From the IMG/VR virus record IMGVR_UViG_3300043446_003355, positions 1 through 28,053 of that record: a DNA stretch of 28,053 nt; one strand, 5' to 3'. The notes beneath the pieces were generated by a model. That model ran no database searches, had not been told where the DNA came from, and saw only the letters and a program-made list of their open reading frames with translations. Made by a program: the position numbers and the translations under genes. The DNA is from a virus. Positions within the stretch are counted from its first letter, which is position 1. Each line of letters opens with the position of its first letter. Below are positions 522-25,814 of this stretch, one piece after another.

Positions 522-709
522 TGTGCTTCTACCTTTTCGATTTCATTCGCTAGCGTATTCATCACGACCATAAGAGCGGTCGTGGCAGCTAGCTCGTTCG
601 GACCGAGTGTACGGAACACAGAAAAGGCATAGTCCATTGCCTCTTTCAACGTCTCACGCTCGGCGAAGAGCTTGTGACGGATAGCCTTAGCGAGTTCTTG
701 ATTAGTCAT
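518..709 (-). CDS. Hypothetical 63-aa helical protein
   Basis: The longest open frame extends to 799, but the better start is the ATG at 709, preceded by AAGGA with seven bases of spacing and beginning MTNQELAKAIRHKLFAERET. The longer version would overlap the neighbouring gene almost fully at its own 3' end. The protein is 63 residues, almost entirely alpha-helical in composition, with an Ala/Leu/Met-rich second half and an acidic C-terminus. No family is recognised. It lies between two small genes with one base before it and a four-base overlap after it, so it belongs to the operon driven from the promoter at 936-964. Confidence 0.7.
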   Translation of the reverse strand: MTNQELAKAIRHKLFAERETLKEAMDYAFSVFRTLGPNELAATTALMVVMNTLANEIEKVEAQ

Positions 710-710
710 C

Positions 711-908
711 TTACAGTCCTTCAAAGTAGCGAACATCAGCTTCAGTAGTATAGGGATCCTCGGCGCACACCAGCTCGACCAGCTTGTCCTGGAGCGCACG
801 GATCTGCGGGAGAAGATGCTCCGCCAGCGGATAGGCTTTGAAATTCATCGCCATGGCATAGTTAGACTCGAGCATCTCGAGTTCGTTGCGGATCTGGTCA
901 ACAGTCAT
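711..908 (-). CDS. Hypothetical 65-aa helical protein, first gene after a promoter
   Basis: An open frame reaches 968, but that extension translates the promoter at 936-964. The start at 908 (MTVDQIRNELEMLESNYAMA) has AAAGGA upstream at suitable distance. The 65-residue product is helical and acidic, with ELEMLE and LLPQIRALQDKLVELV suggesting two amphipathic helices that could pair as a small coiled coil or helical hairpin. No family recognised. It heads a three-gene unit (908 to 303) of tiny proteins, a context common in early or host-takeover regions of T4-like phages; a role in host takeover is only a guess. Confidence 0.72.
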   Translation of the reverse strand: MTVDQIRNELEMLESNYAMAMNFKAYPLAEHLLPQIRALQDKLVELVCAEDPYTTEADVRYFEGL

Positions 909-935
909 TTCATTTCCTTTCTTCATCATATATAC

Positions 936-964
936 ATGATAGCTTGGATTTGAAATTAAAGCAA
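936..964 (-). promoter_or_regulatory. Sigma70-type promoter, TTGCTT family
   Basis: Minus-strand -35 TTGCTT (964-959) and -10 TATCAT (941-936) with a 17-base spacer. The upstream half matches the promoters at 249-277 and 1400-1428. Transcription would start near 929, leaving a leader of about 20 bases containing AAAGGA before the ATG at 908. Confidence 0.8.
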
Positions 965-978
965 GCATTTTTTTATGG

Positions 979-1188
979 TTAAGCTGCAGCTGAAGTTATA
1001 GTCAGCCAACCAGAAATCGGGGAGTAGGCTCTATAGTAAAGCCCACGCCCATGGATTTCGTCGTCGTACTCGATCTTAACCACTGCCTCAAACCCAGCTT
1101 TCTCAGCTTTGCCTAGAGCAGTAGCTAGATCGGAGCCATTGTACAGCTCAGTTCCGAAGTTCGTTAAGGTTACGGTATAGTTATACAT
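979..1188 (-). CDS. Hypothetical 69-aa protein
   Basis: 69 residues beginning MYNYTVTLTNFGTELYNGSD, followed by an Ala-rich helix (LATALGKAEKAGFEAVVKI) and a beta-like C-terminus (GRGLYYRAYSPISGWLTI). The beta-helix-beta layout with a Gly/Tyr-rich end is consistent with a small compact fold; I do not recognise a family. AAGGA lies seven bases before the ATG. The gene sits ten bases after the one at 1199-1378 and is probably co-transcribed with it from the promoter at 1400-1428. Confidence 0.7.
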   Translation of the reverse strand: MYNYTVTLTNFGTELYNGSDLATALGKAEKAGFEAVVKIEYDDEIHGRGLYYRAYSPISGWLTITSAAA

Positions 1189-1198
1189 GAGCTTGTCC

Positions 1199-1378
1199 TT
1201 AGAAGAGCTTCGGCTTCGGTTTAGCTACTTGTTTGAAGAAATGGTTAAGCTCCCTTAAGAATATCTTAAGGCATTTCGTGTCGTGGGCTTCTACTGGCGT
1301 GGTTGGCCAATCGAAACCCTTTTCTATCGCCTTGTCCTGAGCCTTAAGAATCTCGTTGATTAATTCGGTGCGGGTCAT
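1199..1378 (-). CDS. Hypothetical 59-aa protein
   Basis: The open frame extends to 1432, but its first 18 codons are the promoter at 1400-1428. The ATG at 1378 has an AAGGAG ribosome site eight bases upstream and starts MTRTELINEILKAQDKAIEK. The 59-residue product is mostly helical and ends in a basic Lys/Pro tail (KQVAKPKPKLF). No known domain is visible. It is the first gene of its transcript, right after a strong terminator and promoter pair, so it can be expressed independently of the DUF465-like gene upstream. Confidence 0.7.
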   Translation of the reverse strand: MTRTELINEILKAQDKAIEKGFDWPTTPVEAHDTKCLKIFLRELNHFFKQVAKPKPKLF

Positions 1379-1399
1379 TTCGTTTCTCCTTACTTTTAC

Positions 1400-1428
1400 A
1401 TCATAGCCGACCCTTAAAATTAAAGCAA
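1400..1428 (-). promoter_or_regulatory. Sigma70-type promoter directly after a terminator
   Basis: Minus-strand -35 TTGCTT (1428-1423) and -10 TATGAT (1405-1400), 17-base spacer. It begins two to three bases after the T-tract of the terminator at 1431-1469, so one transcript ends and the next begins in about 70 bases. The leader carries AAGGAG before the ATG at 1378. Confidence 0.82.
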
Positions 1429-1430
1429 GC

Positions 1431-1469
1431 AAAAAAATAGCTAGACCATAAAAAAAGTATGGTCTAGCT
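1431..1469 (-). terminator. Rho-independent terminator
   Basis: On the minus strand, a perfect 12-bp stem (1469-1458 with 1450-1439, AGCTAGACCATA and its complement) with a seven-base loop is followed by A and then seven T (1437-1431). It would end the transcript that comes from the exonuclease and DUF465-like genes. There is no T-tract on the plus-strand side, so it acts in one direction. Confidence 0.9.
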
Positions 1470-1470
1470 T

Positions 1471-1490
1471 ATTCGGGTGTATTCGGGTGT
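1471..1490. repeat. Tandem 10-bp duplication
   Basis: ATTCGGGTGT occurs twice in exact tandem just upstream of the terminator stem. No function is evident; it may be a replication-slippage product in the non-coding gap. Confidence 0.85.
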
Positions 1491-1513
1491 TTAAATGGCG
1501 CTACTTGACCTTA

Positions 1514-1573
1514 GCTATAACCTTAGCCTTAGCCATAGAGCTATAGCTAGGCTATAATCTTAGCCTTAGCCAT
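1514..1573. repeat. 23-bp direct repeat duplicating the 3' end of the DUF465-like gene
   Basis: 1514-1536 and 1551-1573 match over 23 bases with one difference (C/T). The right copy encodes the C-terminus MAKAKIIA of the gene at 1547-1729. The left copy lies after its stop and could encode only an 11-residue peptide (1501-1536) without a ribosome site, so I read it as a duplicated gene end, not a gene. Confidence 0.75.
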
Positions 1574-1729
1574 TTCAATTTCGGTCTTGAGCTTGAGCTT
1601 TTCGATCTTATGCTTTCTTACAACTTCATCTTGAGCATAGTGGTTGAATTCCTCTTTGATAGCTTTATCTAGAGCATGGTGCTTTTCTTCCAAATGCTTG
1701 ATGTGGCTTTTCAATGATGCTTCGCTCAT
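1547..1729 (-). CDS. Small coiled-coil protein resembling DUF465/YdcH
   Basis: 60 residues forming one charged helical hairpin. The pattern SHIKHLEEKHHALDKAIKEE, then a KHKIEKLKLKTEIEMAK segment, matches the DUF465 (YdcH-like) layout: a His/Leu helix with LD-x-x-I, a short linker, then LK-x-x-KLxLK-x-E. Family members are short helical proteins with no settled function. AAGGAG lies eight bases before the ATG, and the ATG overlaps the exonuclease stop by four bases, so the two are coupled. Its C-terminal codons are duplicated downstream (1514-1536), and the terminator at 1431-1469 ends this transcript. Confidence 0.7.
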   Translation of the reverse strand: MSEASLKSHIKHLEEKHHALDKAIKEEFNHYAQDEVVRKHKIEKLKLKTEIEMAKAKIIA

Positions 1730-2379
1730 GAGAAAATCTCCTTGACTCGATTAATATACGGCTGCTTTTCTTTCACAAATATCTGCGGATCTTCATGATC
1801 AACAGCTATCATAATAACAAACTGAGGAATGATAAGACCAGTACGCTCTTCAGCCATTAGAGCATACGTTGTCGCTTGAAGTAAGTAATTCTCAATCCAT
1901 TCTTCCTTCTTTAATTTGCGGGCAGTTTTAAAGTCGATAATTGAAGGAACACCATTCCACTCGGCGATACAATCGGTGCGACCAGCTGCTGCTAATGCAT
2001 ACGAATAGAGTGGTGCTTCTATACCAAAGACGCGACCAATATGATCATCCATGTGTGGACGCAATGTACGAAACAGGTCGATGTTAGTTGGCATCGAGTT
2101 TTTAGGATACGTAGGCTCATTCATCAAATAGCTTTCGCAAATACTATGAATAGCAGTTCCGCGAGCAGCTGCTTGCGTAGAAATCTTTTGTGCTTCTTCT
2201 ACACCCACTCTGGCTCTCCATTCCATCAGCGCTGTTTTATCTGATGCTTCGCCAATTCGAGTTGTAACAGACTGCGCCAAAGTTCCATTTGGCAATTCAT
2301 AGTATCGTTTATCGTGCATTATTACTGTTTTGAGTTGTTCAAAATCAAATAATGCGTGCTCAAAAAATCTACGCGACAA
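1726..2379 (-). CDS. PD-(D/E)XK nuclease, phage exonuclease type
   Basis: 217 residues. The nuclease core is visible at about 130-170: AGRTDCIAEWNGVPSIIDFK gives the Asp, then the IIDFK Asp-x-Lys pair, followed by a Gln-rich helix (LLQATTYALM) typical of lambda-exonuclease/RecB-type folds. A metal-binding His/Glu helix (GTAIHSICESYL) precedes the core. Similar proteins in T4-like marine phages are annotated as exonucleases and are thought to help recombination or host DNA breakdown. The start is unusual: the frame opens at TTG (2379) inside the last codons of phoH, and the next ATG would remove 20 residues including the conserved-looking FFEHALFDF. I keep TTG, with moderate certainty. It overlaps phoH by 11 bases. 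Confidence 0.85.
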   Translation of the reverse strand: MSRRFFEHALFDFEQLKTVIMHDKRYYELPNGTLAQSVTTRIGEASDKTALMEWRARVGVEEAQKISTQAAARGTAIHSICESYLMNEPTYPKNSMPTNIDLFRTLRPHMDDHIGRVFGIEAPLYSYALAAAGRTDCIAEWNGVPSIIDFKTARKLKKEEWIENYLLQATTYALMAEERTGLIIPQFVIMIAVDHEDPQIFVKEKQPYINRVKEIFS

Positions 2380-3109
2380 TCCTTAGCCTATCTTTGGTTA
2401 TGATGTATTCCTTGACCATTGCTGATCTCACAATATCATTCTCGTTAAAGTCAACAAACTCAAAAGATTTCATCTTCTGAATTATTCTCATAAAGTCAGT
2501 CAATCCATTTTTCTCATGCTCGCGAGTGAAATCTGACTGTCTGAAATCACCGCAAAATATTACTTTACAGTTTCGACCTACACGAGTGATGACAGAATCT
2601 AATTCGTGTAAAGTCATATTTGCTATTTCATCAACAACAATAATGCAATCATTGAGAGTAATACCACGTATGAAAGAAGTACTGATGAAATCGACAAGAT
2701 TTTTCGACTTAAGATACTCATAGGCGTCTCCGCGCTCAAAGAGCTCTGAAAAGATAGCTTGATACGGTGCTTCGTATACTTTAGCTTTTTCTTTGTTGTT
2801 GCCAGGAAGGAATCCCATGTCTCGCGTTGGTACGACTGATCGTACGATGACGAGCTTTTTGTACTTGCTGTTGTCTGATAGTATTGATCGAAGAGATAGG
2901 TATATGGATAAGAAAGACTTACCCGTGCCCGCGATCCCGTGGAGTAGTAAGTTTTTGTTTTGTTCATAATAATCAAATGTCAACTTTTGGTTGGCTGTTA
3001 ATGGTTCAACATTTTTTAAATGAAAATTTAATTTTGGTTCTTCATACTTCCCTGTTTGTCTTAAAATGCGCTTTTCTTTTCTTGTTAGTCTCTGTGTTTT
3101 CTGCTGCAT
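2369..3109 (-). CDS. phoH: PhoH-like P-loop ATPase
   Basis: 246 residues. A basic N-terminus (1-35) precedes the ATPase core: Walker A GIAGTGKS at 58-65, Walker B IIVVDE at 156-161 followed by a conserved ANM, and the sensor-like IFCGDFRQSDF at 184-194. The RSVVPTRDMGFLPG block at 90-103 is diagnostic of PhoH. PhoH is common in marine T4-like phages. It is an NTPase linked to phosphate stress in bacteria, and a helicase/RNase role has been proposed for relatives; its phage function is not established. The Lys-rich N-terminus could bind nucleic acid. It lies 12 bases after the FmdB-like gene and overlaps the exonuclease gene. Confidence 0.95.
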   Translation of the reverse strand: MQQKTQRLTRKEKRILRQTGKYEEPKLNFHLKNVEPLTANQKLTFDYYEQNKNLLLHGIAGTGKSFLSIYLSLRSILSDNSKYKKLVIVRSVVPTRDMGFLPGNNKEKAKVYEAPYQAIFSELFERGDAYEYLKSKNLVDFISTSFIRGITLNDCIIVVDEIANMTLHELDSVITRVGRNCKVIFCGDFRQSDFTREHEKNGLTDFMRIIQKMKSFEFVDFNENDIVRSAMVKEYIITKDRLRIVA

Positions 3110-3121
3110 TTATTCACTGCT

Positions 3122-3364
3122 CTAAAATGTGTTGATAGTACTCCTAGTAATTCCTTTACTATGCTTTTTCTTCATATCTTTAAGCAAGTCTCGGAAACCC
3201 TGATCTGGCTTACCCATACCACGACCAGAGGCAAGTGCAGGAGCACCATTAACGAGTTGAGTAATATGAGGATTAGCGGCGAGGTATTCGTCAAGAGCGG
3301 AAATGCTCATGAAGTCCTGCCATTCTTCCCCAGTGTTGTTATCGCGGAATGCGTAAGTCGGCAT
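3122..3364 (-). CDS. FmdB-like small protein lacking zinc-ribbon cysteines
   Basis: 80 residues beginning MPTYAFRDNNTGEEWQDFMS. The MPTY-x-[FY]-R start is that of FmdB-type zinc ribbons, but the C-x-x-C pair that normally follows is replaced by DNNTGE, so zinc binding is not expected. The middle has a helix (ALDEYLAANPHITQLVNG) and the C-terminus a conserved-looking GRGMGKPDQGFRDLLKDMKK. Cysteine-poor relatives occur in T4-like phages beside RNase H and PhoH. No function is known. It overlaps the next upstream gene by 26 bases in another frame. Confidence 0.75.
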   Translation of the reverse strand: MPTYAFRDNNTGEEWQDFMSISALDEYLAANPHITQLVNGAPALASGRGMGKPDQGFRDLLKDMKKKHSKGITRSTINTF

Positions 3365-3581
3365 CTTGCTCTTCTTCTAGACGTTTAAAGTATTCATAAT
3401 CATCAGGGTCAATTCCATCGTCTTCTATGTTTACAAGATCCTGGATGTTCTTTGTTCGCAGTGCTCGATCAAAACGCTTTTCTTTAGAACGATTACGGTT
3501 TGGACGAGCGTCGTAATCACCATCATCATATTCTCTGTCTAGATGATAGTTGTAGTACTTACTGTTTTTAGACTTGCCCAT
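3339..3581 (-). CDS. Hypothetical 80-aa charged protein
   Basis: 80 residues, mostly Asp, Glu, Arg and Lys, starting MGKSKNSKYYNYHLDREYDD and containing KRFDRALRTKNIQDLVNIED. The composition suggests a largely disordered, possibly nucleic-acid-associated protein with one short helix. It sits directly after the DUF6433-like gene (the stop at 3582 abuts the ATG at 3581) and overlaps the FmdB-like gene. I recall similar charged proteins at this position in marine T4-like phages, but no function. Confidence 0.7.
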   Translation of the reverse strand: MGKSKNSKYYNYHLDREYDDGDYDARPNRNRSKEKRFDRALRTKNIQDLVNIEDDGIDPDDYEYFKRLEEEQDADLRIPR

Positions 3582-4019
3582 TTATGCCTTACTCTCCTCT
3601 GGTGGCAATAAGTCAGGGAATGCTTCTCTAACAATATCTGCCGTGATTCCCTTGTACGGCAATTTCTTATCCTTAATAGCGCAGAGCAGTTTTGCGTCAG
3701 AAGGACTTACTGTTTCCAATAATTCGATAAACATTGATTCGCGCTTGAGTTGCTTTAGACCAGGAGATCCGCCCTCTACAAAATATATTAGTTTACGGCA
3801 ACTATGTATTAAAACATTTTCTTGATCGACGAGAGTTGTTGGATTGTACGGTGGGACGCCTGCAGGCAACTGCCACCTAATACGTGGATCAAATGCTCCC
3901 TGCAAAATAGTTCTGATGTGAAACGAATCATTTGCTTTTAATACTTCAATTTTTTCTGCACGCTTTTTGAGCTTCGAAACATTTTCGAGAAACTCAGCAA
4001 TACCAACACGCATAGCCAT
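3582..4019 (-). CDS. Conserved T4-like phage protein, DUF6433-like
   Basis: 145 residues. It starts MAMRVGIAEFLENVSKLKKR, has a motif-like IRTILQGAFDPRIRWQLPAG at 36-55, and ends in an acidic, proline-rich tail (FPDLLPPEESKA). I recognise this as the protein that sits next to RNase H in many marine T4-like phages, and I believe its Pfam name is DUF6433; the number should be checked. The middle resembles proteins that count or sense helical substrates, but there are no catalytic residues to point to. It starts one base after rnh stops, so it is probably made with RNase H. No function is known. Confidence 0.75.
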   Translation of the reverse strand: MAMRVGIAEFLENVSKLKKRAEKIEVLKANDSFHIRTILQGAFDPRIRWQLPAGVPPYNPTTLVDQENVLIHSCRKLIYFVEGGSPGLKQLKRESMFIELLETVSPSDAKLLCAIKDKKLPYKGITADIVREAFPDLLPPEESKA

Positions 4020-4868
4020 TCAAAACTCCTGTATGTGTTCCATTAAATGTTTCAACTTATTAGAAATGAAATAGTTGAACATCTTATCACGACCTTTATC
4101 ATTTTGATTTTCGTAAGACGCCAGCACCTTCAATTGTATTTCTTTGGGCACAAAAGCCAAATCAATCAGCTGCTGATTACGAAGATAATTACGCAGATAC
4201 TCACTATCTATATTTTCTGATGTTTTACCAATCAAAGTTTCCATACGCTTTGCGGTCAGTGGGCGCTGTCTGTCGCCAAGAACAAAACAATTGTCAGCAG
4301 ACAGTATGTTAGGAACGCCATCGCCAGCATCTCCCTTCAAAATATGTTCCTGTAAATACAGTTTAGGGTTGTCATGTTTGATCCACTTCTTACGAACAGG
4401 ATCGTACTGCTTCACATCTGAACGATGCAGCTGAATGAAATCCTTGTCGCCCGACAAGATTAGGAATTCTTCCTGCATCGGAACATCAAGAACACTCGTG
4501 AGAGTATAGATGATATCGTCCGCTTCCGCAGACTCAATATCGATAACTCTGTAGGGGAAAAACTCTTTCAGCTCTGCTCGAATCTTGTTCAAGCACTCGA
4601 AGATCTGCTTCCAATCAAGCTCAGAAGTTTCCTGATTCTTTTTTCGGTTAGCCTTGTAGTAGGGGAAGATCTGTTTACGCCAGTAGTTGGTATTGTCGCA
4701 CGCAATTACCATCTCACCGAACTCGTTGCCAAACTTTTGGTTATAAGAACGCAAAGAGTTTAGCACCATATGACGAACCATGTTTTCTTCGATTTCAGCG
4801 TTGGTGTGGTTACCCAGCTGCATCATAAGATTGGAAAGCATGACTTGACTCAAGTCAACGATAATCAT
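4020..4868 (-). CDS. rnh: T4-type RNase H / 5'-3' exonuclease
   Basis: 282 residues, near the T4 Rnh length (305). It shows the FEN-1/5'-nuclease signature: D5 in MIIVDLSQV, D58 in VIACDNTNYW, the YYKANRKK helix at 70-77, the metal cluster ESAEADDI at 112-119, LSGDKDF at 138-144, and GDAGDGVPNIL at 179-189, which holds the second acidic pair. The family removes RNA primers and flaps during lagging-strand synthesis and has 5'-3' exonuclease activity. The T4 enzyme works with the phage single-stranded DNA-binding protein and clamp. It is 11 bases after the gene at 4880-5257 and probably shares the strong promoter at 5271-5299. Confidence 0.95.
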   Translation of the reverse strand: MIIVDLSQVMLSNLMMQLGNHTNAEIEENMVRHMVLNSLRSYNQKFGNEFGEMVIACDNTNYWRKQIFPYYKANRKKNQETSELDWKQIFECLNKIRAELKEFFPYRVIDIESAEADDIIYTLTSVLDVPMQEEFLILSGDKDFIQLHRSDVKQYDPVRKKWIKHDNPKLYLQEHILKGDAGDGVPNILSADNCFVLGDRQRPLTAKRMETLIGKTSENIDSEYLRNYLRNQQLIDLAFVPKEIQLKVLASYENQNDKGRDKMFNYFISNKLKHLMEHIQEF

Positions 4869-4879
4869 AATATAGAACC

Positions 4880-5257
4880 TTACTTGTCCTGTGTCAGTTT
4901 GATATTCAACTTGTCAACTACTACGAACTTTGTATCCTCTCCATCCTGAACCATTGCAAATACCTTATCGGCAATTTGTTGGAAAGGATGAGATATTCCG
5001 TAATGCTTGCAAAGCAGAGATCTGATTGCTTCAACAACAAACGCGCCATCTTTAATATCTGAATCGTTTTCATCTGGATCTTCCAGTAAGAAACCAGATG
5101 ACTCCATTGCTGAAAAAAGATTCGGGATAATTGTGGCGAGAGTTTCGTTGATATGGTGATGGCGAAGGTTAAGGATTTTATTTTCAACATCTTCCATCTC
5201 AACAGGAGCTGCAGCCAAATCGTCACGCTTTTTTGGAAACTGGATTACATTATCCAT
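4880..5257 (-). CDS. Hypothetical 125-aa protein leading the rnh operon
   Basis: 125 residues starting MDNVIQFPKKRDDLAAAPVE. The N-terminal NVIQFP-K motif recurs in proteins of T4-like and other phages. The middle is helical (NKILNLRHHHINETLATIIP), followed by an acidic DPDENDSDIKDG loop and a C-terminal beta-like segment (TKFVVVDKLNIKL). No enzymatic motif. It is the first gene after a full-consensus promoter whose predicted transcript start is only about seven bases before the ATG, with AGGA in that short leader. Function unknown. Confidence 0.75.
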   Translation of the reverse strand: MDNVIQFPKKRDDLAAAPVEMEDVENKILNLRHHHINETLATIIPNLFSAMESSGFLLEDPDENDSDIKDGAFVVEAIRSLLCKHYGISHPFQQIADKVFAMVQDGEDTKFVVVDKLNIKLTQDK

Positions 5258-5270
5258 TTATCCTACCTTT

Positions 5271-5299
5271 ATTATACGGGACATGTTATAATTTGTCAA
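5271..5299 (-). promoter_or_regulatory. Full-consensus sigma70 promoter
   Basis: Minus-strand TTGACA (5299-5294), 17-base spacer, TATAAT (5276-5271): both boxes match consensus exactly. The predicted start near 5264 leaves a seven-base leader (AGGATAA) before the ATG at 5257. It should drive the 5257 gene, rnh, phoH and the exonuclease. Confidence 0.92.
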
Positions 5300-5313
5300 C
5301 TTGTTTATTTAGG

Positions 5314-6300
5314 TTAACAGTGAGCTGCGATTCTACTGCCATGGAAGTAGAACTTGAAGTCGTAGACACGACATTCTGTTTCTTTTGTAATAGCTTCAAC
5401 AACTTCTTCGCGGCGATCCTTTGTTACATAAAACAAAAAGAAACCTCCACCACCAGCGCCGAGTAGTTTGCCGCCGAGAGATCCTGCATCTATAGCTTTG
5501 CTATAGATCGTATCGAAGTAATCCTGCGTGATCTCACTGACGAGTCCCTTCTTTTCCATCCATGCTTCGTGGAGTAGAGCGCCGAACGAATCGGTGTCGC
5601 CTTTCATCAGCAACTTAACACCCTCATACGCCTTGTCACGCGAGCTACGAACAAGATTGAACTTATCCTTATCACCCATCGCAGCTTGTTGTTTTTGAAG
5701 AATACTGTTAGCAGATCTCCCGCGACCACTATAAACCAACAGTAGATTGTCCTCTAAACGATTGAACGCTTCATGACCGATGCGAATTTCGCGTACATTC
5801 ACATCGCCATCTTTCATAAACTCAAAGATGTTCATGCCACCATACGCAGCTGCAAACTGATCCTGCTTACCGACAGGATATCCGCACTTATCCATTTCGA
5901 TATGACAGGCAATGTCAGCAAGGTAACGCTTTGACGCGACCTCCCACTTGGTGCTAGCAAGAGAGTTTACCAACCCAACAGTGAACGCTGATGATGAACC
6001 AAGACCTGAACCCTTCGACAAAATGTCAGAAATTGAAGCGATCGTCACTTCCTTCGAAACATTAAAATACTTCAACGCTTCCTTGGTAATCAAATGCTGC
6101 ATCTGCTCCACATCTGGGGTCTCTTCAATAGTGTCGTACATGATTTTGACGCCCAGATGTGGAGTCTTATGAACACAGACATAAATGAATTTGTCGATAG
6201 TACAAGACAGCGCCGCGCCCTGTTCCTTTTCATAGAACGATGGCATGTCACTACCACCAGAGAAGAAACTAATACGCAGCGGTGTTTTGGAAATAATCAT
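5314..6300 (-). CDS. hddA: D-glycero-D-manno-heptose 7-phosphate kinase-like GHMP kinase
   Basis: 328 residues, a normal length for the family. GHMP motif 1 is near the start (TPLRISFFSGGSDMPSFYEK, 6-25), motif 2 GSGLGSSSA is at 97-105, GKQDQFAAAYGG at 144-154, and motif 3 KLLGAGGGG at 278-286. The TPLRISFFSGGSD start and the GKQDQ block are those of HddA rather than galactokinase. The family phosphorylates D-glycero-D-manno-heptose 7-phosphate at C1 to the alpha-1,7-bisphosphate. It shares the operon with transaldolase, GmhA, GmhB and a nucleotidyltransferase, which supports heptose as substrate; a fucokinase-like role is less likely. It overlaps the glycosyltransferase by one base and is the last gene of the operon. 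Confidence 0.9.
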   Translation of the reverse strand: MIISKTPLRISFFSGGSDMPSFYEKEQGAALSCTIDKFIYVCVHKTPHLGVKIMYDTIEETPDVEQMQHLITKEALKYFNVSKEVTIASISDILSKGSGLGSSSAFTVGLVNSLASTKWEVASKRYLADIACHIEMDKCGYPVGKQDQFAAAYGGMNIFEFMKDGDVNVREIRIGHEAFNRLEDNLLLVYSGRGRSANSILQKQQAAMGDKDKFNLVRSSRDKAYEGVKLLMKGDTDSFGALLHEAWMEKKGLVSEITQDYFDTIYSKAIDAGSLGGKLLGAGGGGFFLFYVTKDRREEVVEAITKETECRVYDFKFYFHGSRIAAHC

Positions 6301-7304
6301 TATGCAGTCCTATAAACGAATTGCTCTTTAGGGATAGCTCGACTTTCAACTGTTGGGTATTTTGCTAACAATTCATTTAGCGTGCGTTCCCACTGAGACT
6401 TAATTAGCTGAATATTGTACCTTCGATCAACGAAGTACTTATTGAATCTGATCATATCATTTTGTTGATTATCGCGCACCATGTTTATTGTTGCATTTAG
6501 ATACGTCGCAAACATGTTTGCATGATTATTTTTATTATCTATATCTAACTGATACATTACATTGAGCGAGCCAGAGGTTTCTGGTAGAGCAGCGAGATTT
6601 GAATGCACACAAACAAGACCAGCAGACATAGCCTCAAGCATTGCGCGGCAGCTAGTTTCATACCAGATGCTAGGGTAAGCAAAAATATGCGACTTGTTCA
6701 AATGATCCTTGAGAACATCGTTGGGAACAAACCCGTGATATGTCATCTTCGGATGATTGCGAATCTTATCATAGAGAGGTTCGAACTGCTTATCAGCATC
6801 ATCCCAGCCATAGATCTTAAAGCTCGAAAAAACATCGAGATGAACATCGTTGTGAATTTCGGCGAGCTTTTCAAAAACTGGCACAAGAATTTCTAAACCA
6901 CGCTGTGGCGTAGAAGTGTAAACAATTCTTATTGGACCTTCTGGTTTATCAAAACAATTTTCTGGCGCAGGATCAATACCAGTTTCCAAAACAACTGATT
7001 TAAAGTCGTAAGGAATACCATGAATTAATTGATAACGCTGATACTGCCAGTTGCTAATGAATACGAATTTGTGAAAGCTATCTTGAAACTTTCTATCTTG
7101 AAACTTTTTTGATTCTGGATCTTCGGGCAAATCGTGACACCAGAATACGCGAATCTTATCTTCCTGCAGCTCTCGTGGGCGAGAGCAGATAATTTGAAAG
7201 TTTTCAAGCAAAGAAGGATCAATTATAGAGGCTAGTTTGCGCTTGGCAATTTCAGTACCGCCATTCGCATTTTTAGAAATTTCGTTTTCCTCAAACCCAC
7301 TCAC
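6300..7304 (-). CDS. Glycosyltransferase, GT-B fold (GT4-like)
   Basis: 334 residues. The N-terminal half is shortened and lacks the usual long acceptor domain, although SGFEENEISKNANGGTEIAK near the start carries the NGGTE glycine loop of GT4-type enzymes. The donor half is clear: IRIVYTSTPQRGLEILVPVF, a DVFSSFKIYGW segment, YHGFVPNDVLKDHL, then the SHIFAYPSIWYETSCRAMLE block with the E-x7-E pattern that binds the sugar nucleotide. Similar proteins occur in cyanophage and pelagiphage genomes. It probably transfers the sugar made by this operon, but the acceptor (phage DNA, tail fibre or host surface) cannot be seen. Stop and start overlaps of 1 and 4 bases couple it to its neighbours. Confidence 0.88.
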   Translation of the reverse strand: MSGFEENEISKNANGGTEIAKRKLASIIDPSLLENFQIICSRPRELQEDKIRVFWCHDLPEDPESKKFQDRKFQDSFHKFVFISNWQYQRYQLIHGIPYDFKSVVLETGIDPAPENCFDKPEGPIRIVYTSTPQRGLEILVPVFEKLAEIHNDVHLDVFSSFKIYGWDDADKQFEPLYDKIRNHPKMTYHGFVPNDVLKDHLNKSHIFAYPSIWYETSCRAMLEAMSAGLVCVHSNLAALPETSGSLNVMYQLDIDNKNNHANMFATYLNATINMVRDNQQNDMIRFNKYFVDRRYNIQLIKSQWERTLNELLAKYPTVESRAIPKEQFVYRTA

Positions 7305-7843
7305 TTGATATCCTCCTCGAGGAACTGTATAATAGCTTCGGGAGAAGTTTCACCATAAGGATCAGTAGAACAATCATCACAAATACCTGGCTCTTCGAAC
7401 CATGCTTCAATGACGCCATTATTAACAATAGCAGCATAGCGCCAAGAACGTTGACCGAAACCAAGGTTCAACTTGTCGACAAGCATTCCCATTTCAAATG
7501 TAAACTGACCATTGCCATCTGGAATAACTTTAACATTTTTAAGATTTTGCTGTTTCGCCCAAGCATTCATTACGAAGGCATCATTAACGGACATACAGTA
7601 AATTTCGTCAATACCAAATTCTTGTTTAAACCGTTCATAATTAGCTTCAAAACCAGGAAGCTGATATGTAGAGCAAGTAGGTGTAAATGCTCCAGGCAAC
7701 GAAAAAAGAAGTACACGTTTACCAGTAAAATACTCTGCAGATTCTTTCAATTCCCACTTATATGGGTTAGGTCCACCAATGCTGTCATCTCTAACACGAA
7801 CCATAAACGAACAATCTGGTACACGCGCTCCAACATTACTCAT
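7301..7843 (-). CDS. Peroxiredoxin, Prx5 family
   Basis: 180 residues. The peroxidatic site is PGAFTPTC at 50-57 with C57, followed by YQLPGFE; the Arg partner lies in GFGQRSWRYAAIV at 128-140 (R132/R135). The VRDD-x-GGPNPYKW start and VNDAFVMNAWA are Prx5-type. A second CxxC-like pair (C155 and C158, in GICDDC) near the C-terminus may act in disulphide exchange. Such enzymes reduce peroxides using glutaredoxin or thioredoxin; a glutaredoxin is encoded at 11408-11671. The gene lies inside a sugar operon, 11 bases after transaldolase and overlapping the glycosyltransferase by four, which is odd. Confidence 0.93.
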   Translation of the reverse strand: MSNVGARVPDCSFMVRVRDDSIGGPNPYKWELKESAEYFTGKRVLLFSLPGAFTPTCSTYQLPGFEANYERFKQEFGIDEIYCMSVNDAFVMNAWAKQQNLKNVKVIPDGNGQFTFEMGMLVDKLNLGFGQRSWRYAAIVNNGVIEAWFEEPGICDDCSTDPYGETSPEAIIQFLEEDIK

Positions 7844-7854
7844 AATATATCTCC

Positions 7855-8592
7855 TTAGCAGTGAATTTTAAATCCAGAACTGGCAGCATCATTGTAAAAC
7901 ATCTGCACAGTTTCAAGTGAATACTGATTCAAGTTTTTACCAAACGTCTTCATCTTATCTATCATTGCTGGTGGCATAGTGATAATGTCGCAACCACTAC
8001 GATCAGCTTGGATATAATTGAAAGGCTCGCGGCAAGATGCCCAAAGGAACTCGAGCTTTGTATTGCTGTTCTTATAACGCTGATAGTATCCAGTTGCGAA
8101 CTTAATCATTTCTTCTGGATCCATACCAGCATCAGCAATACGACCAGCGAAAATAGAAACAATGCTTGGTACAAAATGATTTAGGTTATCCACAACTTCC
8201 ATAATTTGCTGCTGAGTAAACACTGCAGTCACGTTGCACTTGACGCCACTATCAGACAACATCTTGTATGCAGGCGCAGTAGAAATACCAGTAGTCGTTG
8301 TGACAGGAATCTTGATATAAACATCGTAGTCGTATTCTTTAGCCCAATCATTAATCTTCAATGCCTGTTTAGTCATTGTCGGAAGATCATCAGCGAACAC
8401 TTCGAGACTCAGTGATGTTCCTGGGCGATTAGTAGCAAGGTGCATGATAGCACCACGAGCAAAAGACTCATAGTCGACAATACCAGCTTGTTTCATAAGA
8501 GTTGGGTTCGTAGTAAATCCAACAATCTTTTCGTTTTTGGCAGCTTCGGCGATACCGTTAAAGTCCGCGCCATCAGAAAACAACTTAACCAT
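7855..8592 (-). CDS. talC: Transaldolase, TalC-like
   Basis: 245 residues, slightly longer than the usual 215-225 of TalC/FSA-type enzymes. The Schiff-base lysine is K94 in VYIKIPVT (91-98). GFTTNPTLMKQAG (25-37) is the phosphate-loop start of the family, and NVTAVFTQQQ and SIFAGRIADAG follow. Transaldolase moves a three-carbon unit between sugar phosphates; one product is sedoheptulose 7-phosphate. Cyanophages carry a related talC to redirect host carbon. Here the neighbours use sedoheptulose 7-phosphate (GmhA) instead of photosynthetic intermediates, so the likely role is substrate supply for heptose synthesis. It overlaps gmhB by eight bases. Confidence 0.93.
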   Translation of the reverse strand: MVKLFSDGADFNGIAEAAKNEKIVGFTTNPTLMKQAGIVDYESFARGAIMHLATNRPGTSLSLEVFADDLPTMTKQALKINDWAKEYDYDVYIKIPVTTTTGISTAPAYKMLSDSGVKCNVTAVFTQQQIMEVVDNLNHFVPSIVSIFAGRIADAGMDPEEMIKFATGYYQRYKNSNTKLEFLWASCREPFNYIQADRSGCDIITMPPAMIDKMKTFGKNLNQYSLETVQMFYNDAASSGFKIHC

Positions 8593-9124
8593 ATTCGTGT
8601 AACTCCTTGATCAGTAGGCATGCCTGTAGTACATCAGAACAGATATAATCTGGTTGGATATGTTCATATTCGGGAGGAGAGTGATATACATCACCAATGT
8701 ATATAGTGCTCAAATGACTACGTCTACCAGCCACTATATCTTTCCAACGATCGCCAATCATCCAGCAATCTCTACGATGTATTTTATGTTTTTTCAAAAG
8801 AAATTCTATCATACCATTGTTAGGTTTATAGAACTTGGCGCCTCTGTCGAAAGCGCAAATAACTTCTTCGATACCCAGCCAATTTTTTAACATCCGCGTC
8901 ATCAAACGAAGATCTTCTACTGGCAATTTACCATCGTTTACGTCTGGCTGATTAGTAACCACAAAAACATTATAGCCTAATTCTTTAGCTATGTCAACTG
9001 CTTGTTTTGCATCTCTCGTGAATCGAAACTCATCTACTGACCATGGCGCAGTTAGCACTCCGTCATGAAGCGCTAACTCGTTTAATACGCCATCGCGATC
9101 AAAAAATATAGCTTTTTTTACCAC
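8585..9124 (-). CDS. gmhB: Heptose bisphosphate phosphatase-like HAD protein (GmhB-like)
   Basis: 179 residues. HAD motifs: FFDRDGVLN with D9 and D11, VVTNQPD for motif II, KPNNGMIEF for motif III, and MIGDRWKDIVAGR for motif IV, all of the HAD-IIIA histidinol/heptose phosphatase type. GmhB removes the C7 phosphate from the 1,7-bisphosphate. Classic GmhB carries a zinc-binding Cys/His loop before the KP motif; here the stretch ICAFDRGAKFYKP has only one cysteine, so zinc is probably absent. Such zinc-free HAD-IIIA enzymes exist, and the substrate may differ. It overlaps gmhA by seven bases. Confidence 0.85.
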   Translation of the reverse strand: MVKKAIFFDRDGVLNELALHDGVLTAPWSVDEFRFTRDAKQAVDIAKELGYNVFVVTNQPDVNDGKLPVEDLRLMTRMLKNWLGIEEVICAFDRGAKFYKPNNGMIEFLLKKHKIHRRDCWMIGDRWKDIVAGRRSHLSTIYIGDVYHSPPEYEHIQPDYICSDVLQACLLIKELHEYG

Positions 9125-9705
9125 TTTGTATTTTTAATTTGAAGTTTCGGATTAGAGACTAAGCTATGCCAGATAACTGCTTGAAATGCTTCGCTGTGGG
9201 GAGTGATGCGTTCAGGAGCGATCGGTGGGACGCAAACACAAACGTCTGCCATCTTGTAGGTGTAACCATCGTTGCGACCTACGATGCCAAGCACAGTGCC
9301 ATCTTTAGAACGAGCGTACTTGATAGCCTTGATCAAACCAACAGAAACATTCTTTTCTTCGTTACCACCACCTACGGAGAGAACGAACAAAGCGTCTTTG
9401 TAGCTAAACCTGCTGACTCGAAGATATTCTTCAAATATTGTATCGAATCCTTCGTCATTTGTTCGCGCAGTAATTTCTGATGCGTTATCTGTAGGCGCAT
9501 AACATTCGATGCCACAGAGCTTACGTAAATCGTTGACCATATGAGAGGCATTGCCAGCGGAGCCGCCGACTCCCAAAATAAATACGCGTCCTTCGCTGAC
9601 ATCTCTGACTGTAACGAGTGCATCGGCTAACCTTTCGACTGCAGTAATATTCATCTGCTGTGCAATAAGCTGTACTTCTTGGAAAAATGATTCACTAAAT
9701 GTCAT
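9118..9705 (-). CDS. gmhA: Sedoheptulose 7-phosphate isomerase (GmhA-like)
   Basis: 195 residues, the normal GmhA length (about 192). SIS-domain signature: FILGVGGSAGNASHMVNDLR at 42-61, CGIECYAPTDNASEITARTN at 64-83, and SVGGGNEEKNVSVGL at 110-124. GmhA turns sedoheptulose 7-phosphate into D-glycero-D-manno-heptose 7-phosphate, the first dedicated step of heptose synthesis. In the operon it follows a nucleotidyltransferase gene and precedes gmhB, a standard pairing. The catalytic Glu and His of the family probably fall in the DNASEITARTNDEG and ERITPHSEAFQAV stretches. It overlaps the nucleotidyltransferase by four bases. Confidence 0.92.
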   Translation of the reverse strand: MTFSESFFQEVQLIAQQMNITAVERLADALVTVRDVSEGRVFILGVGGSAGNASHMVNDLRKLCGIECYAPTDNASEITARTNDEGFDTIFEEYLRVSRFSYKDALFVLSVGGGNEEKNVSVGLIKAIKYARSKDGTVLGIVGRNDGYTYKMADVCVCVPPIAPERITPHSEAFQAVIWHSLVSNPKLQIKNTKW

Positions 9706-10103
9706 CGCATACGACTCCTCAACTCAGTAGAGCTATACTTGTGTTTTCTATTATTATAGACAATCTGAATACCACGCTTTTCACAGATATCCTGACCTGT
9801 TAAGTATGTATCACTGTACTCTTCACCAACAAAACGAACATCAATTTTTTCAACAGCAAGTAAATTGATTAGATCAGTTTCTGTTTCGTATGGGATAATT
9901 TTATCTACAAACTTGCAGCCTTCGAGCTGCAAGTATCTTTCGTATACTGATTGAATCGGCTTATTCTTACCAGCTCGATCAATGGAGGGATCAGTGTGAA
10001 GACCTACGATAAGATAATCACACTGACTAGCACATTCACGCAGCATTGCGACATGTCCAGGATGGAGCAAGTCGAACGCGCTACAAGTAAATCCTACAAT
10101 CAT
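9702..10103 (-). CDS. Cytidylyltransferase-fold nucleotidyltransferase (HldE C-terminal/TagD type)
   Basis: 133 residues, one nucleotidyltransferase domain. Motifs: GFTCSAFDLLHPGH at 4-17 with the HxGH signature (H14, H17), an NKPIQSVYERYLQLEGC segment, and YSSTELRSRM near the C-terminus, matching the family's Ser/Thr-containing motif. HldE C-terminal domains activate heptose 1-phosphate with ATP, while TagD uses CTP and glycerol 3-phosphate; this sequence fits between them. Given the neighbours, the likely product is ADP- or CDP-heptose, but an HddA kinase makes the alpha anomer normally used for GDP-heptose, so the nucleotide is uncertain. It overlaps both neighbours by four bases. Confidence 0.85.
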   Translation of the reverse strand: MIVGFTCSAFDLLHPGHVAMLRECASQCDYLIVGLHTDPSIDRAGKNKPIQSVYERYLQLEGCKFVDKIIPYETETDLINLLAVEKIDVRFVGEEYSDTYLTGQDICEKRGIQIVYNNRKHKYSSTELRSRMR

Positions 10104-10468
10104 GCTTGCCTTTCGACATATGCAGTCTTATACTTTTCAAACTTGAACCACTTCTGTGCAACCTTTACCACAGTTTCAGGGTCATATGGCTTGCAAGAAA
10201 ATACGTCAAGATACATACCGTTGCCGCCCTTGAGATCATCAGGGACGAAATGAGCGCAGATGTTGCTAGTCTCAATTAGCTGAACTAGGGTATAACCTGC
10301 TTTGTTGCCAGATCCAAAGTTAACGATCTGTGGTTCACCGTAAGCAACCATGTCAATTTCTTTTACAAGATCTTTGACAAAGTTATAGATGTTATCATAA
10401 GAGGTAATCGACTCTGGATCGCAACCAGAAGCATCTAGAATAGTGTGATATCCCCAGTACTCTGCCAT
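10100..10468 (-). CDS. S-adenosylmethionine decarboxylase-like protein
   Basis: 122 residues from the ATG at 10468. The longer frame to 10510 is less likely because AGGAG sits ten bases before 10468. The fold matches the bacterial SpeD proenzyme: WGYHTILDASGCDPE at the start, IETSNICAHF at 65-74 with the conserved His at 73, and YLDVFSCKPYDPETV at 86-100 with the conserved Cys at 92. The autocleavage motif, normally Glu-Ser-His, is ETSN here, so pyruvoyl formation is doubtful. Cyanophages carry SpeD-like genes. It may have another role, such as a non-catalytic partner. It precedes the nucleotidyltransferase with a four-base overlap. Confidence 0.72.
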   Translation of the reverse strand: MAEYWGYHTILDASGCDPESITSYDNIYNFVKDLVKEIDMVAYGEPQIVNFGSGNKAGYTLVQLIETSNICAHFVPDDLKGGNGMYLDVFSCKPYDPETVVKVAQKWFKFEKYKTAYVERQA

Positions 10469-10493
10469 CTCATTTGAACTCCTATTATTAGGG

Positions 10494-10520
10494 AAAAATA
10501 AATCCACCAAGAACTGGTGG
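10494..10520 (-). terminator. Hairpin with T-rich tail before the sugar operon
   Basis: CCACCA (10504-10509) and TGGTGG (10515-10520) form a perfect 6-bp stem with a five-base loop. On the minus strand it is followed by ATTTATTTTT. It sits between the gene at 10535-10813 and the SpeD-like gene. It could end the upstream transcript or stabilise the 5' end of a transcript started at the TATAAATA box at 10526-10533. Confidence 0.6.
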
Positions 10521-10814: not shown

Positions 10815-11408
10815 TTAGTTTCCTTTCGGTGTCAAAATACAAATAGATGAGTACTGATCTTTGTCGTTAAATACCTGAACGTCAAAAAACTGAACAACCC
10901 AATGATACCAATCTTCGCGACCAACATAGTCATGAATCATAATTACTGCATCATTTTTCTTTTTCTTATGCAAAATAGTAGAAAGGCAAGCACCTCTTAC
11001 AATACCATCAACAAAGAAAAAGTCAGCGTTCCAAATGTCATCTTCTGGGTTAATGTATTCATCAGTACCGCATGGATGCTCTTCGATCAAACTACCATAA
11101 CCATGTTCTATATGCTTTTCTGGTCTGTAGTGAAACTTGAATTTGTTACTAACGTCGCCAAACTCAGCACTAATAGCTCTCGTTACACGATTATACCAAT
11201 TCTCATTGTGTTCAATAGTAATGAGGCGCTGATTGTCAGTAAGGGTTTCAAGCCATTTACATGTAGACCCACCACTGCCCCACTCAACCATTAATCCATC
11301 CTTTGGCATATTTTTGATGGCATTGCAAATAACTTCCATATCAAATTCAACCATTTGAATTTCAGTCAGTACATTACCATAATCCACTCTCACGGGCATA
11401 GCTGGCAT
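10815..11408 (-). CDS. Class I SAM-dependent methyltransferase-like protein
   Basis: 197 residues. The glycine-rich SAM loop is at about 42-54 (VEWGSGGSTCKWLE), followed by acidic LITIEHNENWYNRV at the end of strand 2. A WNADFFFVDG segment follows, then a KKKKNDAVIMIHDYVGRED block in which HDY-x-GR is the catalytic-type motif of related sugar and small-molecule methyltransferases. The substrate cannot be read; near glycosyltransferases it could be a sugar or surface polymer. It overlaps glutaredoxin by one base and leads directly into the SH3-barrel gene. Confidence 0.8.
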   Translation of the reverse strand: MPAMPVRVDYGNVLTEIQMVEFDMEVICNAIKNMPKDGLMVEWGSGGSTCKWLETLTDNQRLITIEHNENWYNRVTRAISAEFGDVSNKFKFHYRPEKHIEHGYGSLIEEHPCGTDEYINPEDDIWNADFFFVDGIVRGACLSTILHKKKKNDAVIMIHDYVGREDWYHWVVQFFDVQVFNDKDQYSSICILTPKGN

Positions 11409-11671
11409 TAATATTCTCCTTCATTCAACAATTTACGAGTTTCGTTTTTTTGTTCTACTAATACTTTTAGTTGATCGTATCCACCAATATTATAGCCATC
11501 TACGACTATGACTGGAAAAGTTTTGGCGGAAGGAAATAATTCCAGCAGATTTTCTTTTGTAAAATCTTCATCTAAAACAAGAGAAGTATATTCAATTTTA
11601 TTCTTTTCTAATAATTTTTTTGCATATTCGCAGTACACGCAACTTTTTTTAGTATAAAGAATTATTCTCAT
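11408..11671 (-). CDS. grx: Glutaredoxin
   Basis: 87 residues. The active site is CVYC at 11-14 (SCVYCEYAKKLLE), and the GSH-binding TFPVIVVDGYNIGGYDQL at 51-68 holds the cis-proline and the GG-Y segment. Phage glutaredoxins (T4 NrdC) supply electrons to class Ia ribonucleotide reductase, which is encoded at 18960-22744; the peroxiredoxin at 7301 could also use it. It overlaps a 34-residue gene by four bases upstream and the methyltransferase by one base downstream. Confidence 0.95.
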   Translation of the reverse strand: MRIILYTKKSCVYCEYAKKLLEKNKIEYTSLVLDEDFTKENLLELFPSAKTFPVIVVDGYNIGGYDQLKVLVEQKNETRKLLNEGEY

Positions 11672-11772
11672 GATAGCCTTTCCCTCCAGTACTGTTTGAT
11701 ATGTTCTGAATTAGATGGATCGTAGCCATTCATATACATATCATACTGCACCAACAGTTCTAATTCACTCAT
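11668..11772 (-). CDS. 34-aa small protein
   Basis: A short ORF from ATG 11772 to TGA 11668, 34 residues: MSELELLVQYDMYMNGYDPS, then a basic end QYWRERLS. GGAG lies seven bases before the ATG, and the stop overlaps the glutaredoxin start (ATGA), so translation is coupled. It is acidic and aromatic, probably one amphipathic helix with a Tyr-rich core. No family recognised. It is below normal gene-finding length, but the ribosome site and overlap make it likely. Confidence 0.72.
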   Translation of the reverse strand: MSELELLVQYDMYMNGYDPSNSEHIKQYWRERLS

Positions 11773-11784
11773 ATCATACTCCGT

Positions 11785-12474
11785 TTAATTCAATTTGTCA
11801 ACAACTTTTAATTTTCTTTTTTTCTTGTGAAACTTTTTTGTAGTTTCTCCTGTGATGTTATTTTCTACACCATCCATATATGGATCGCCATCATAAGGAA
11901 TATCAGTCCACATCTGATGTTTATTATACAAGTCAGGATTTGACATAATGGTGTCGATTTTCAATTCAAAATTATCTAACTGTCTGTGAGGAACTACAGT
12001 AACAAATCCAAGAGGTTCGCCCTTTGTGAATGTTACTTTTCCAGGATAAGTCATTTTCCAGTTTAAGAAAAATGTCATGTGCGCCCAGTTCGATTCAATA
12101 ATCGAAGACATCTGTACAGCTCCATCTTTAAAAAAGTTAGGAGCGCCAGTAACAAGTATTGCATAATCTTCTGGTGTTTCTATCACATAACCAGCTCTAA
12201 TACTACAAACACCATAACCCATGCCAGTATAAAAAAGATGCGAATGATCTATGTTAGAATGAACAACCAAATCAGTAGAATTATTACCACCATTCCATTC
12301 AATAGTAAAGTCGCCAGGAGCTCTAAATTCCCACCCCGACTGATGAGCCATGGTCATGGACAAATCTTTGTAGAACTTACCCTCCGCCTTATCAATCCAG
12401 TCTCTTTTGTTTTTACCAGGAACTACTGGCAGAGCTCTGTTGTAGTTAATGGCATAAAATTTTATTTCCATCAC
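11785..12474 (-). CDS. DUF6065 family protein
   Basis: 229 residues. The region DFTIEWNGGNNSTDLVVHSN followed by GYGVCSIRAGYVIETPEDYA, LVTGAPNFFKDG, IIESNWAHMTFFLNWKMTYP and FTKGEPLGFVTVVP matches the family I know as DUF6065: a beta-rich protein with a WNGG start, a GxP-N loop and a FTxNWK strand. The C-terminus ends in a basic KKFHKKKRKLK patch. It has been linked to glycosylation or surface gene clusters in other genomes, but its activity is not established. It overlaps the GlcNAc-transferase-like gene by four bases. Confidence 0.78.
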   Translation of the reverse strand: MMEIKFYAINYNRALPVVPGKNKRDWIDKAEGKFYKDLSMTMAHQSGWEFRAPGDFTIEWNGGNNSTDLVVHSNIDHSHLFYTGMGYGVCSIRAGYVIETPEDYAILVTGAPNFFKDGAVQMSSIIESNWAHMTFFLNWKMTYPGKVTFTKGEPLGFVTVVPHRQLDNFELKIDTIMSNPDLYNKHQMWTDIPYDGDPYMDGVENNITGETTKKFHKKKRKLKVVDKLN

Positions 12475-13394
12475 AAATATACCTTCTGTAAATCTATATG
12501 GGGATGTTCAGCTCTCATTCTTCCGTAAAATTCCAGGTACAGTTTTTGATCCTGCACGCCATATTTACCATACCATTCACCACGACATATATGTTGCACT
12601 TTTATTTTGCTGGTTCTATCTCTCTGCATCCAATTAATTTTACGAGTACGCTCTTCTTGTTTATCCCAGAAGTTATTACGCTTTTGATCTTTTGGTTGAG
12701 CGACTTGATAAAGATGAGCGCAAATAAATTTAGTCGGAGCAAACATAAAATACCCAGCAGTATACGCACGAATGGCTAGTGTAATTTCTTCGCCGAGGAA
12801 AAAAATTTCTTCATCGTATGGAACTTCATTGACAAAATCACCAACAGTAAATAAAAAACCACCAGCAATAAAATATTCTTGCTCTGGGTAATCATAATCA
12901 TCAGCTGCAAATTTAGCAGCCGCCGAAGGAATAATATTGACATTGTTCATGTCAAATCTAGTTGGTTTGTATTCTAAAATACGTCTGACGCCATCTATTT
13001 CAAATTCATATGCTGGTGGGTATGCAGTTAAAATAACTTTTCTACCATAATCTTTTGATTTTTCAAAATCTTCCAGAAGCAATCGATCCCAGTTGTCAAT
13101 AAACATTATATGCGAATCTATTTGCATATAATAATCTTCGCCATCATAGTAAGACTGGCACATTTTACGCGCCCAGCACACGCCCTTGGCTTCCCGATAA
13201 TCATATCGAACATGATAAACTTCTGGAATAGTATCCAGTTCGTCAAATGAATTATCTTCTAAATCTATTTGGGAAAATACGCAAATGCGAATTTTTAAAT
13301 CGCCAGATGCTTTTTCCAGCAAATTACGAACAGTAAAAATACACTCAGGATCTTTATAATTTGCTATCGAAACGAATAAACTTTTTTTACTCAT
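12471..13394 (-). CDS. GlcNAc-transferase-like glycosyltransferase (PF11397 type)
   Basis: 307 residues. It starts MSKKSLFVSIANYKDPECIF, with SIANYKDPEC as the family's donor-binding block, then ARKMCQSYYDGEDYYMQIDS followed by HIMFIDNWD, in which QIDSH is the DxD-like metal site. Later LEYKPTRFDM and EYFIAGGFLFTVGD hold the acceptor region, and FLGEEITLAIRAYTAGYFMF is the conserved GEE helix. Such enzymes transfer GlcNAc or related sugars from UDP donors. In phages they may glycosylate tail or surface proteins. It overlaps the DUF6065 gene and the small membrane gene by four bases each, so the three are made together. Confidence 0.85.
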   Translation of the reverse strand: MSKKSLFVSIANYKDPECIFTVRNLLEKASGDLKIRICVFSQIDLEDNSFDELDTIPEVYHVRYDYREAKGVCWARKMCQSYYDGEDYYMQIDSHIMFIDNWDRLLLEDFEKSKDYGRKVILTAYPPAYEFEIDGVRRILEYKPTRFDMNNVNIIPSAAAKFAADDYDYPEQEYFIAGGFLFTVGDFVNEVPYDEEIFFLGEEITLAIRAYTAGYFMFAPTKFICAHLYQVAQPKDQKRNNFWDKQEERTRKINWMQRDRTSKIKVQHICRGEWYGKYGVQDQKLYLEFYGRMRAEHPHIDLQKVYL

Positions 13395-25813: not shown

Positions 25814-25814
25814 G

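Follow-up and report, generated by a model that had tools for sequence, protein, structure and literature searches.

A dedicated transaldolase, TalC, probably stands at the entry of a phage gene cassette that would make activated D-glycero-D-manno-heptose during infection. The cassette runs from 10103 down to 5314 on the minus strand of the window, by which we mean the whole 28,053-nucleotide (nt) stretch analyzed (IMG/VR virus record IMGVR_UViG_3300043446_003355), which carries T4-type genes such as RNase H and an nrdA match. Support comes from family-level gene identities, the joint conservation of the genes, the transaldolase residues of TalC, and the presence of this transaldolase type in cellular heptose operons. 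In the proposed route, TalC, acting in the synthetic direction, would transfer three carbons of fructose 6-phosphate onto erythrose 4-phosphate, yielding sedoheptulose 7-phosphate, which GmhA would convert to heptose 7-phosphate. HddA would then phosphorylate C1, presumably in the alpha form, GmhB would remove the 7-phosphate, a nucleotidyltransferase (NTase) would attach a nucleotide, and the neighboring GT4-type glycosyltransferase (GT) could pass the heptose to an acceptor. What is new is the combination of a heptose pathway headed by a transaldolase in phages with its all-or-none behavior, rather than any single enzyme.

Gene order and layout

The original prediction placed NTase, GmhA, GmhB, TalC, GT, and HddA in one tight operon at 5314-10103, and this arrangement was borne out, with all genes on the minus strand; its gene list was right for the genes it named, and overlooked a peroxiredoxin inside the cluster. 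The features are listed below in order of transcription, followed by the landmarks.

9702-10103, minus strand: NTase, stand-alone PF01467 type (HldE/RfaE domain II-like), first heptose gene (PF01467 61.4 bits; TIGR02199 77.4 bits, under cut-off; phrog_7878 117.6 bits)
9118-9705, minus strand: GmhA-like sedoheptulose 7-phosphate isomerase, SIS family (SIS_2 31.6 bits; gmhA models 45-49 bits)
8585-9124, minus strand: GmhB-like HAD phosphatase (HAD-IIIA 70 bits; GmhB models 37-60 bits, under cut-off)
7855-8592, minus strand: transaldolase TalC, TIGR02134-like (278.2 bits)
7301-7843, minus strand: peroxiredoxin, inserted in the cluster (Redoxin 84 bits)
6300-7304, minus strand: GT4-type GT (Glyco_trans_1_4 46.9 bits; phrog_2170 155.9 bits)
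5314-6300, minus strand: HddA-like GHMP kinase, putative heptose 7-phosphate 1-kinase (NF049969 149.6 bits)
10100-10510, minus strand: SpeD-like gene, upstream landmark (AdoMet_dc 69.3 bits)
4880-5257, minus strand: conserved gene without family match, downstream landmark, kept beside HddA in relatives
4020-4868, minus strand: T4-type RNase H, downstream landmark and core marker gene (RNaseH_C 54.1 bits; phrog_107 179.8 bits)

Five of the six junctions overlap by 1-8 nt (NTase/GmhA 4, GmhA/GmhB 7, GmhB/TalC 8, peroxiredoxin/GT 4, and GT/HddA 1 nt), the sixth, TalC-peroxiredoxin, is an 11-nt gap, and SpeD overlaps NTase by 4 nt. Given that the same gene order recurs in dozens of further contigs and that TalC is under purifying selection (nonsynonymous rate, dN, 0.03-0.09 versus synonymous rate, dS, 0.49-1.12 in three close pairs), the clustering is more than chance. 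The peroxiredoxin was considered as a module member and rejected, being missing from that place in most relatives; in others it is next to SpeD or does not appear in the stretch fetched. It is a local insert outside the heptose module.

Co-occurrence in related phages

A TalC scan (5 loci) and an HddA scan (46 loci) yielded L002-L050, with some contigs represented twice; TalC was found in 41 of these 49, and the other eight contigs end within or just before GT. Because these loci had been chosen by pathway genes, we repeated the test with GT as selector, examining 81 loci (80 plus L346, from record G211), 46 of which were fully covered, that is, spanned the upstream to the downstream landmark. 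NTase, GmhA, GmhB, TalC, and HddA were all present in 41 of the 46, while the other five (L407, L421, L424, L419, and L346) lacked NTase, GmhA, TalC, and HddA and retained GT. Mixed states for these four genes occurred in 0/46 loci, so the co-occurrence of talC and gmhA in relatives, on which the original prediction had staked itself beforehand, held in 46/46, a count of loci that are not independent (only 34 of the 46 GT sequences differ). SpeD was likewise retained in loci without heptose genes, and GmhB was missing from L407, L421, and L424. L346 (6217-10062) differs at three junctions, where the four genes are absent, and has both GmhB and GT. Since HddA lies beyond GT, and since GmhB persists in two loci with the genes on either side of it gone, several junctions change at once. 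The sugar pathway is acquired or lost by these phages as one block while the GT remains, and phages that carry it can be paired with phages that lack it in the search for the acceptor.

Records chosen by phrog_1574, a family of unassigned function, carried TalC in 5/11 cases and in 4/5 of those longer than 110 kb, the fifth being G211, the natural cassette-less case; the query came from a TalC-bearing phage, so these 11 records are not a free sample. NTase was not found next to the heptose genes in L048 or L049, and the record of L048 (G007) has an NTase match at 29959, away from the heptose genes and near gp32/gp59.

Divergence was also shared along the pathway. Pairwise identities of TalC correlated with those of GmhA (rho 0.77), GmhB (0.75), and HddA (0.80), compared with 0.49 for GT and 0.43 for RNase H; overall, rho was 0.75-0.85 among GmhA, GmhB, TalC, and HddA and 0.30-0.61 in pairs holding NTase, GT, or RNase H, and 0/499 permutations reached any observed rho. 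A single branch set the phage TalC rows apart from 80 cellular rows (support 80, not starred), and the phage GmhA rows were likewise set apart from cellular ones (support 64, not starred).

Transaldolase type and cellular relatives

TalC belongs to the PF00923 superfamily (145.2 bits, gathering cut-off 27) and scores 278.2 bits against TIGR02134, just below the curated cut-off of 281.95, which three cellular TalC relatives exceed (335-346 bits); the fructose-6-phosphate aldolase/talC model gives 74.9 bits. Its only PHROG match was phrog_440, the cyanophage TalC family (103.9 bits), and of the 476 phage records matched by tblastn, most were cyanophages. Nevertheless, TalC shares only 30-33% identity with the best cyanophage proteins versus 44-51% with cellular relatives, and by sequence it is not of the cyanophage type, the cellular and staphylococcal relatives being much closer. 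The two "Staphylococcus phage" matches were rejected as phage precedents: both records are probably host DNA, the SA 1306 Kay entry being unverified and unannotated.

All 22 phage TalC sequences compared agree at the positions that align with the active site of TalB. In the alignment, Lys94 is in place, and Glu64 and Phe148 match TalB rather than the Gln and Tyr of FsaA; we take the Lys, Asp, Asn, Glu, and Phe of transaldolases to be catalytic. Given that the protein of cyanophage S-WAM2 likewise has Glu and Phe, these two residues do not tell the two phage TalC types apart.

The closest cellular relatives were examined in a genome contig scan, as the best 80 of at least 573. GmhA or GmhB lay within 2 kb of TalC in 74/80 of these loci, and phage-built profiles found GmhA in 71/80, GmhB in 69/80, and HddA in 35/80 anywhere in the fetched stretch. 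Among the six other loci (L070, L098, L102, L115, L136, and L137), HddA lies 12 bases from TalC in L102; HddA, GmhB, and GmhA all fall within 3 kb in L136 and within 7.3 kb in L070; and L137 has a weak GmhB match. In a sample not chosen by phage similarity (TIGR02134 at E 1e-60 in 185 genomes of one class), the model was found in 5/185 genomes, one being the center genome, and all five carried GmhA or GmhB within about 1.5 kb. Given that most sampled loci carry gmhA or gmhB, a function can be proposed for this rare cellular transaldolase type.

These results bear on the usual explanation of phage talC, proposed for cyanophages, in which TalC reroutes host carbon via the pentose phosphate pathway; here the heptose neighbors would be there by chance of acquisition. 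Transaldolase is a central-metabolism enzyme, and cyanophage talC is widespread and has its own published literature. However, TalC shares one all-or-none pattern with GmhA, HddA, and NTase, its cellular relatives are placed in heptose operons, and its lineage is distinct from the cyanophage one, so that the departure from the carbon-rerouting account suggested by the gene context is supported: that account concerns a different TalC. We consider rerouting very improbable for this phage. Precursor supply, in which talC would feed one biosynthetic enzyme, GmhA, appears the best supported role, as originally predicted, and gives phage talC a second, testable meaning. The description of the operon as self-supplying was too strong, as fructose 6-phosphate and erythrose 4-phosphate would still be host-derived.

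Identities of the remaining enzymes

GmhA exceeds the SIS_2 cut-off of 27, while the gmhA equivalogs score far below their NCBIfam cut-offs of 209-320; the active-site His of the Escherichia coli enzyme is kept, and Asp takes the place of a nearby Glu, as it also does in cellular relatives. A tblastn search with GmhA at 1e-5 matched no phage isolate, though Caulobacter phage Cr30 has an annotated isomerase. GmhB is above the HAD-IIIA cut-off of 44.6 and retains DRDG, VTNQ, KP, and GDRWKD. For HddA, NF049969 was by far the best model, at a score well under its cut-off of 600, and the GHMP kinase Pfam domains were above cut-off. NTase exceeds the PF01467 cut-off of 21, and rfaE_dom_II scores below its cut-off of 181.5. 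The names GmhA, GmhB, and HddA are given from family and context rather than equivalog score, and stand for putative functions.

The remoteness of GmhA, GmhB, and HddA from characterized members also leaves room for another reading, in which TalC would be an aldolase or transaldolase acting on other substrates and the cassette would lead through a different ketose phosphate to a sugar other than D-glycero-D-manno-heptose. Such a product would also fit the absence from the phage GmhB of the Cys/His loop seen in the E. coli enzyme, and a methyltransferase gene that lies inside the cluster of L038 and L039. Against it, TalC has the transaldolase-type Glu and Phe, and the best solved relatives of HddA (3k85, 4n3o, and 4usm) are heptose kinases. 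We regard this other-sugar reading as improbable, and D-glycero-D-manno-heptose as the probable product.

No PF00483 match, expected of the HddC-type guanylyltransferase of the GDP-heptose pathway, was found among the 10 proteins scanned at 4020-10510, and none of these 10 was a PfkB-type kinase of the ADP-heptose HldE pathway, the remaining window having been only partly scanned. The available text of PMC10680097 describes HddA as the alpha-heptose kinase of the GDP pathway.

Several observations weigh against the proposed pathway. GmhA, GmhB, and HddA score far below the equivalog cut-offs, and HddA, which makes the alpha-1-phosphate, is paired with an NTase of the HldE-C/TagD superfamily instead of HddC. 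The transaldolase reaction runs in both directions and could instead consume sedoheptulose 7-phosphate. The cellular TalC loci L098 and L115 are without heptose genes, and the 4.5 kb fetched for a staphylococcal TalC relative hold none; therefore, the TalC family serves elsewhere too. GmhB is kept in two (L419 and L346) of the five loci otherwise without the pathway. In all five GT is retained, which suggests that GT is independent of the pathway or uses another donor, and at the threshold used, no column of the GT alignment distinguished loci that have the heptose genes from those that lack them. Finally, the history is not a single simple story. On the RNase H tree (44 rows, as 2/46 loci had a short or missing RNase H; long branches meet at L398 and L418), heptose-gene presence or absence required at least 4 changes, a count as low being reached in 142 and 156 of 500 shuffles for the two labels, whereas on the GT tree it required 2, reached in 0/500. 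The heptose-gene state thus follows GT and not the core gene, and exchange of the whole cassette would give a similar pattern.

Candidate acceptors

The GT structure model (predicted local distance difference test score, pLDDT, 88.3) has a standard GT4 fold with Z scores of 23-26 to GT4 structures; its fold search returned generic GT4 matches only and did not indicate the acceptor. The phrog_2170 search was poorly specific, its control being positive in 14/14 genomes. Addition of the heptose to a host envelope glycan or a virion protein has, in our judgment, an even chance of being correct. The window has another glycosyltransferase gene (PF11397) and a DUF6065 gene nearby, the GT of HTVC027P adjoins a phrog_1574 gene and is within a few genes of a putative structural one, and the acceptors of GT4 neighbors in the PDB include lipids, proteins, teichoic acid, and small molecules. 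On the other hand, fold similarity does not identify the acceptor, and the operon lies among replication genes, not structural genes.

Decoration of phage DNA at hydroxymethylated pyrimidines is a rather unlikely alternative. All eight TalC records covering the gp46-gp45 interval (G001, G002, G004, G005, G207, G208, G209, and G210) encode either TET/JBP (seven) or a T4 gp42-like deoxycytidine monophosphate (dCMP) hydroxymethylase (G002), and G002 has no match to T4 a-gt, b-gt, or TAGT. Phage sugar-donor genes serving DNA are also described, in the text available, for arabinosylation in RB69 (PMC6024577) and for the Thanatos pentose (PMC12838424). G211 encodes TET as well. Hydroxymethylated DNA thus looks general in the group, and a DNA heptose is possible. 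However, the interval is outside the window, and G211 has TET and GT without TalC, GmhA, HddA, or NTase. GT agrees with TET in only 2/7 named phages (GT without a TET match in phiM12, RHph_I1_18, OC, and HTVC027P; TET without a GT match in Melnitz) and with phrog_1574 in 7/7, the HTVC027P GT coming from tblastn. G001 and G009, moreover, have their own TET-associated GT. The fuller proposal, that T4-like phages use TET/JBP or dCMP hydroxymethylase, the cassette, and the phage GT to put heptose on their own hydroxymethylated DNA, and that heptosyl-DNA resists host nucleases, is a shade less likely again.

In a family search of 19 records, TET was found in seven and phrog_842 in three, one weakly; TAGT was found in 2/13 IMG/VR records searched for it. 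Among the named phages with GT and without a TET match, which speak against a DNA acceptor, the PF00303 proteins of phiM12 and RHph carry the Asn motif that we take to mark thymidylate synthase, and PF00303 had no match in OC or HTVC027P.

Other features of the window and of related records

The phrog_1574 gene lies beside gp45, near a TET or hydroxymethylase gene, in L209, L160, L151, and others; its structure model is weak (pLDDT 67.2), with GT-A and nucleotidyltransferase folds as best Foldseek matches (E ~1e-3). In L151 (G002; 534-3598) and L150 (18600-19289), the gp42-like dCMP hydroxymethylase gene lies beside a dCMP deaminase match, a gene resembling pyridoxal phosphate (PLP) enzymes (phrog_7093), and two genes that match no Pfam family; from its gene content, the set may serve DNA hypermodification.

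A second glycan-related stretch of the window, 10815-13394, holds the PF11397 glycosyltransferase (12471-13394), the DUF6065 gene (11785-12474), and a weak Methyltransf_24 match (10815-11408); in L038 and L039, a methyltransferase related to the last is placed between TalC and GT. Within 23454-27933, a 685-amino-acid protein (23454-25511) resembles by eye a CHASE2-adenylate cyclase, and the genes at 25511-27546 resemble by eye FecR and curlin-repeat proteins, all unusual for a phage.

Comparison with known systems

In the open-access literature searched, we found no paper linking phage, transaldolase, and heptose genes. The GDP-heptose pathway, as far as the available text of PMC10680097 describes it, is similar in having an isomerase, a GHMP-type 1-kinase, and a 7-phosphatase in the same step order from sedoheptulose 7-phosphate, and the word "transaldolase" is absent from the main text of that paper. 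The phage cassette differs in adding a transaldolase, in its PF01467 NTase, not of HddC type, and in being carried by a phage.

Caulobacter phage Cr30 has the same kind of GT, with HddA and a phosphoheptose isomerase adjacent; however, it has no TalC match by tblastn, and an annotated epimerase replaces the NTase, GmhB, and TalC genes. Cyanophage TalC (phrog_440) shares the PF00923 superfamily and also occurs in T4-like phages, whereas it is a shorter protein with 30-33% identity, and no heptose genes are annotated beside talC in S-WAM2. RB69 and Thanatos are likewise T4-like phages with sugar-processing genes, but their sugars are different, and in the available text of these reports (PMC6024577; PMC12838424) the DNA product was measured, while the system described here is known from genes alone. 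Related in gene content are cellular gmhA-gmhB-talC clusters such as those of Polynucleobacter (L072) and Lachnospiraceae (L083), in which the same transaldolase type lies beside GmhA and GmhB or HddA; L072 has a fused PF01467-PfkB protein and L083 an HddC-GmhB-like fusion, where the phage has HddA and a stand-alone PF01467 NTase.

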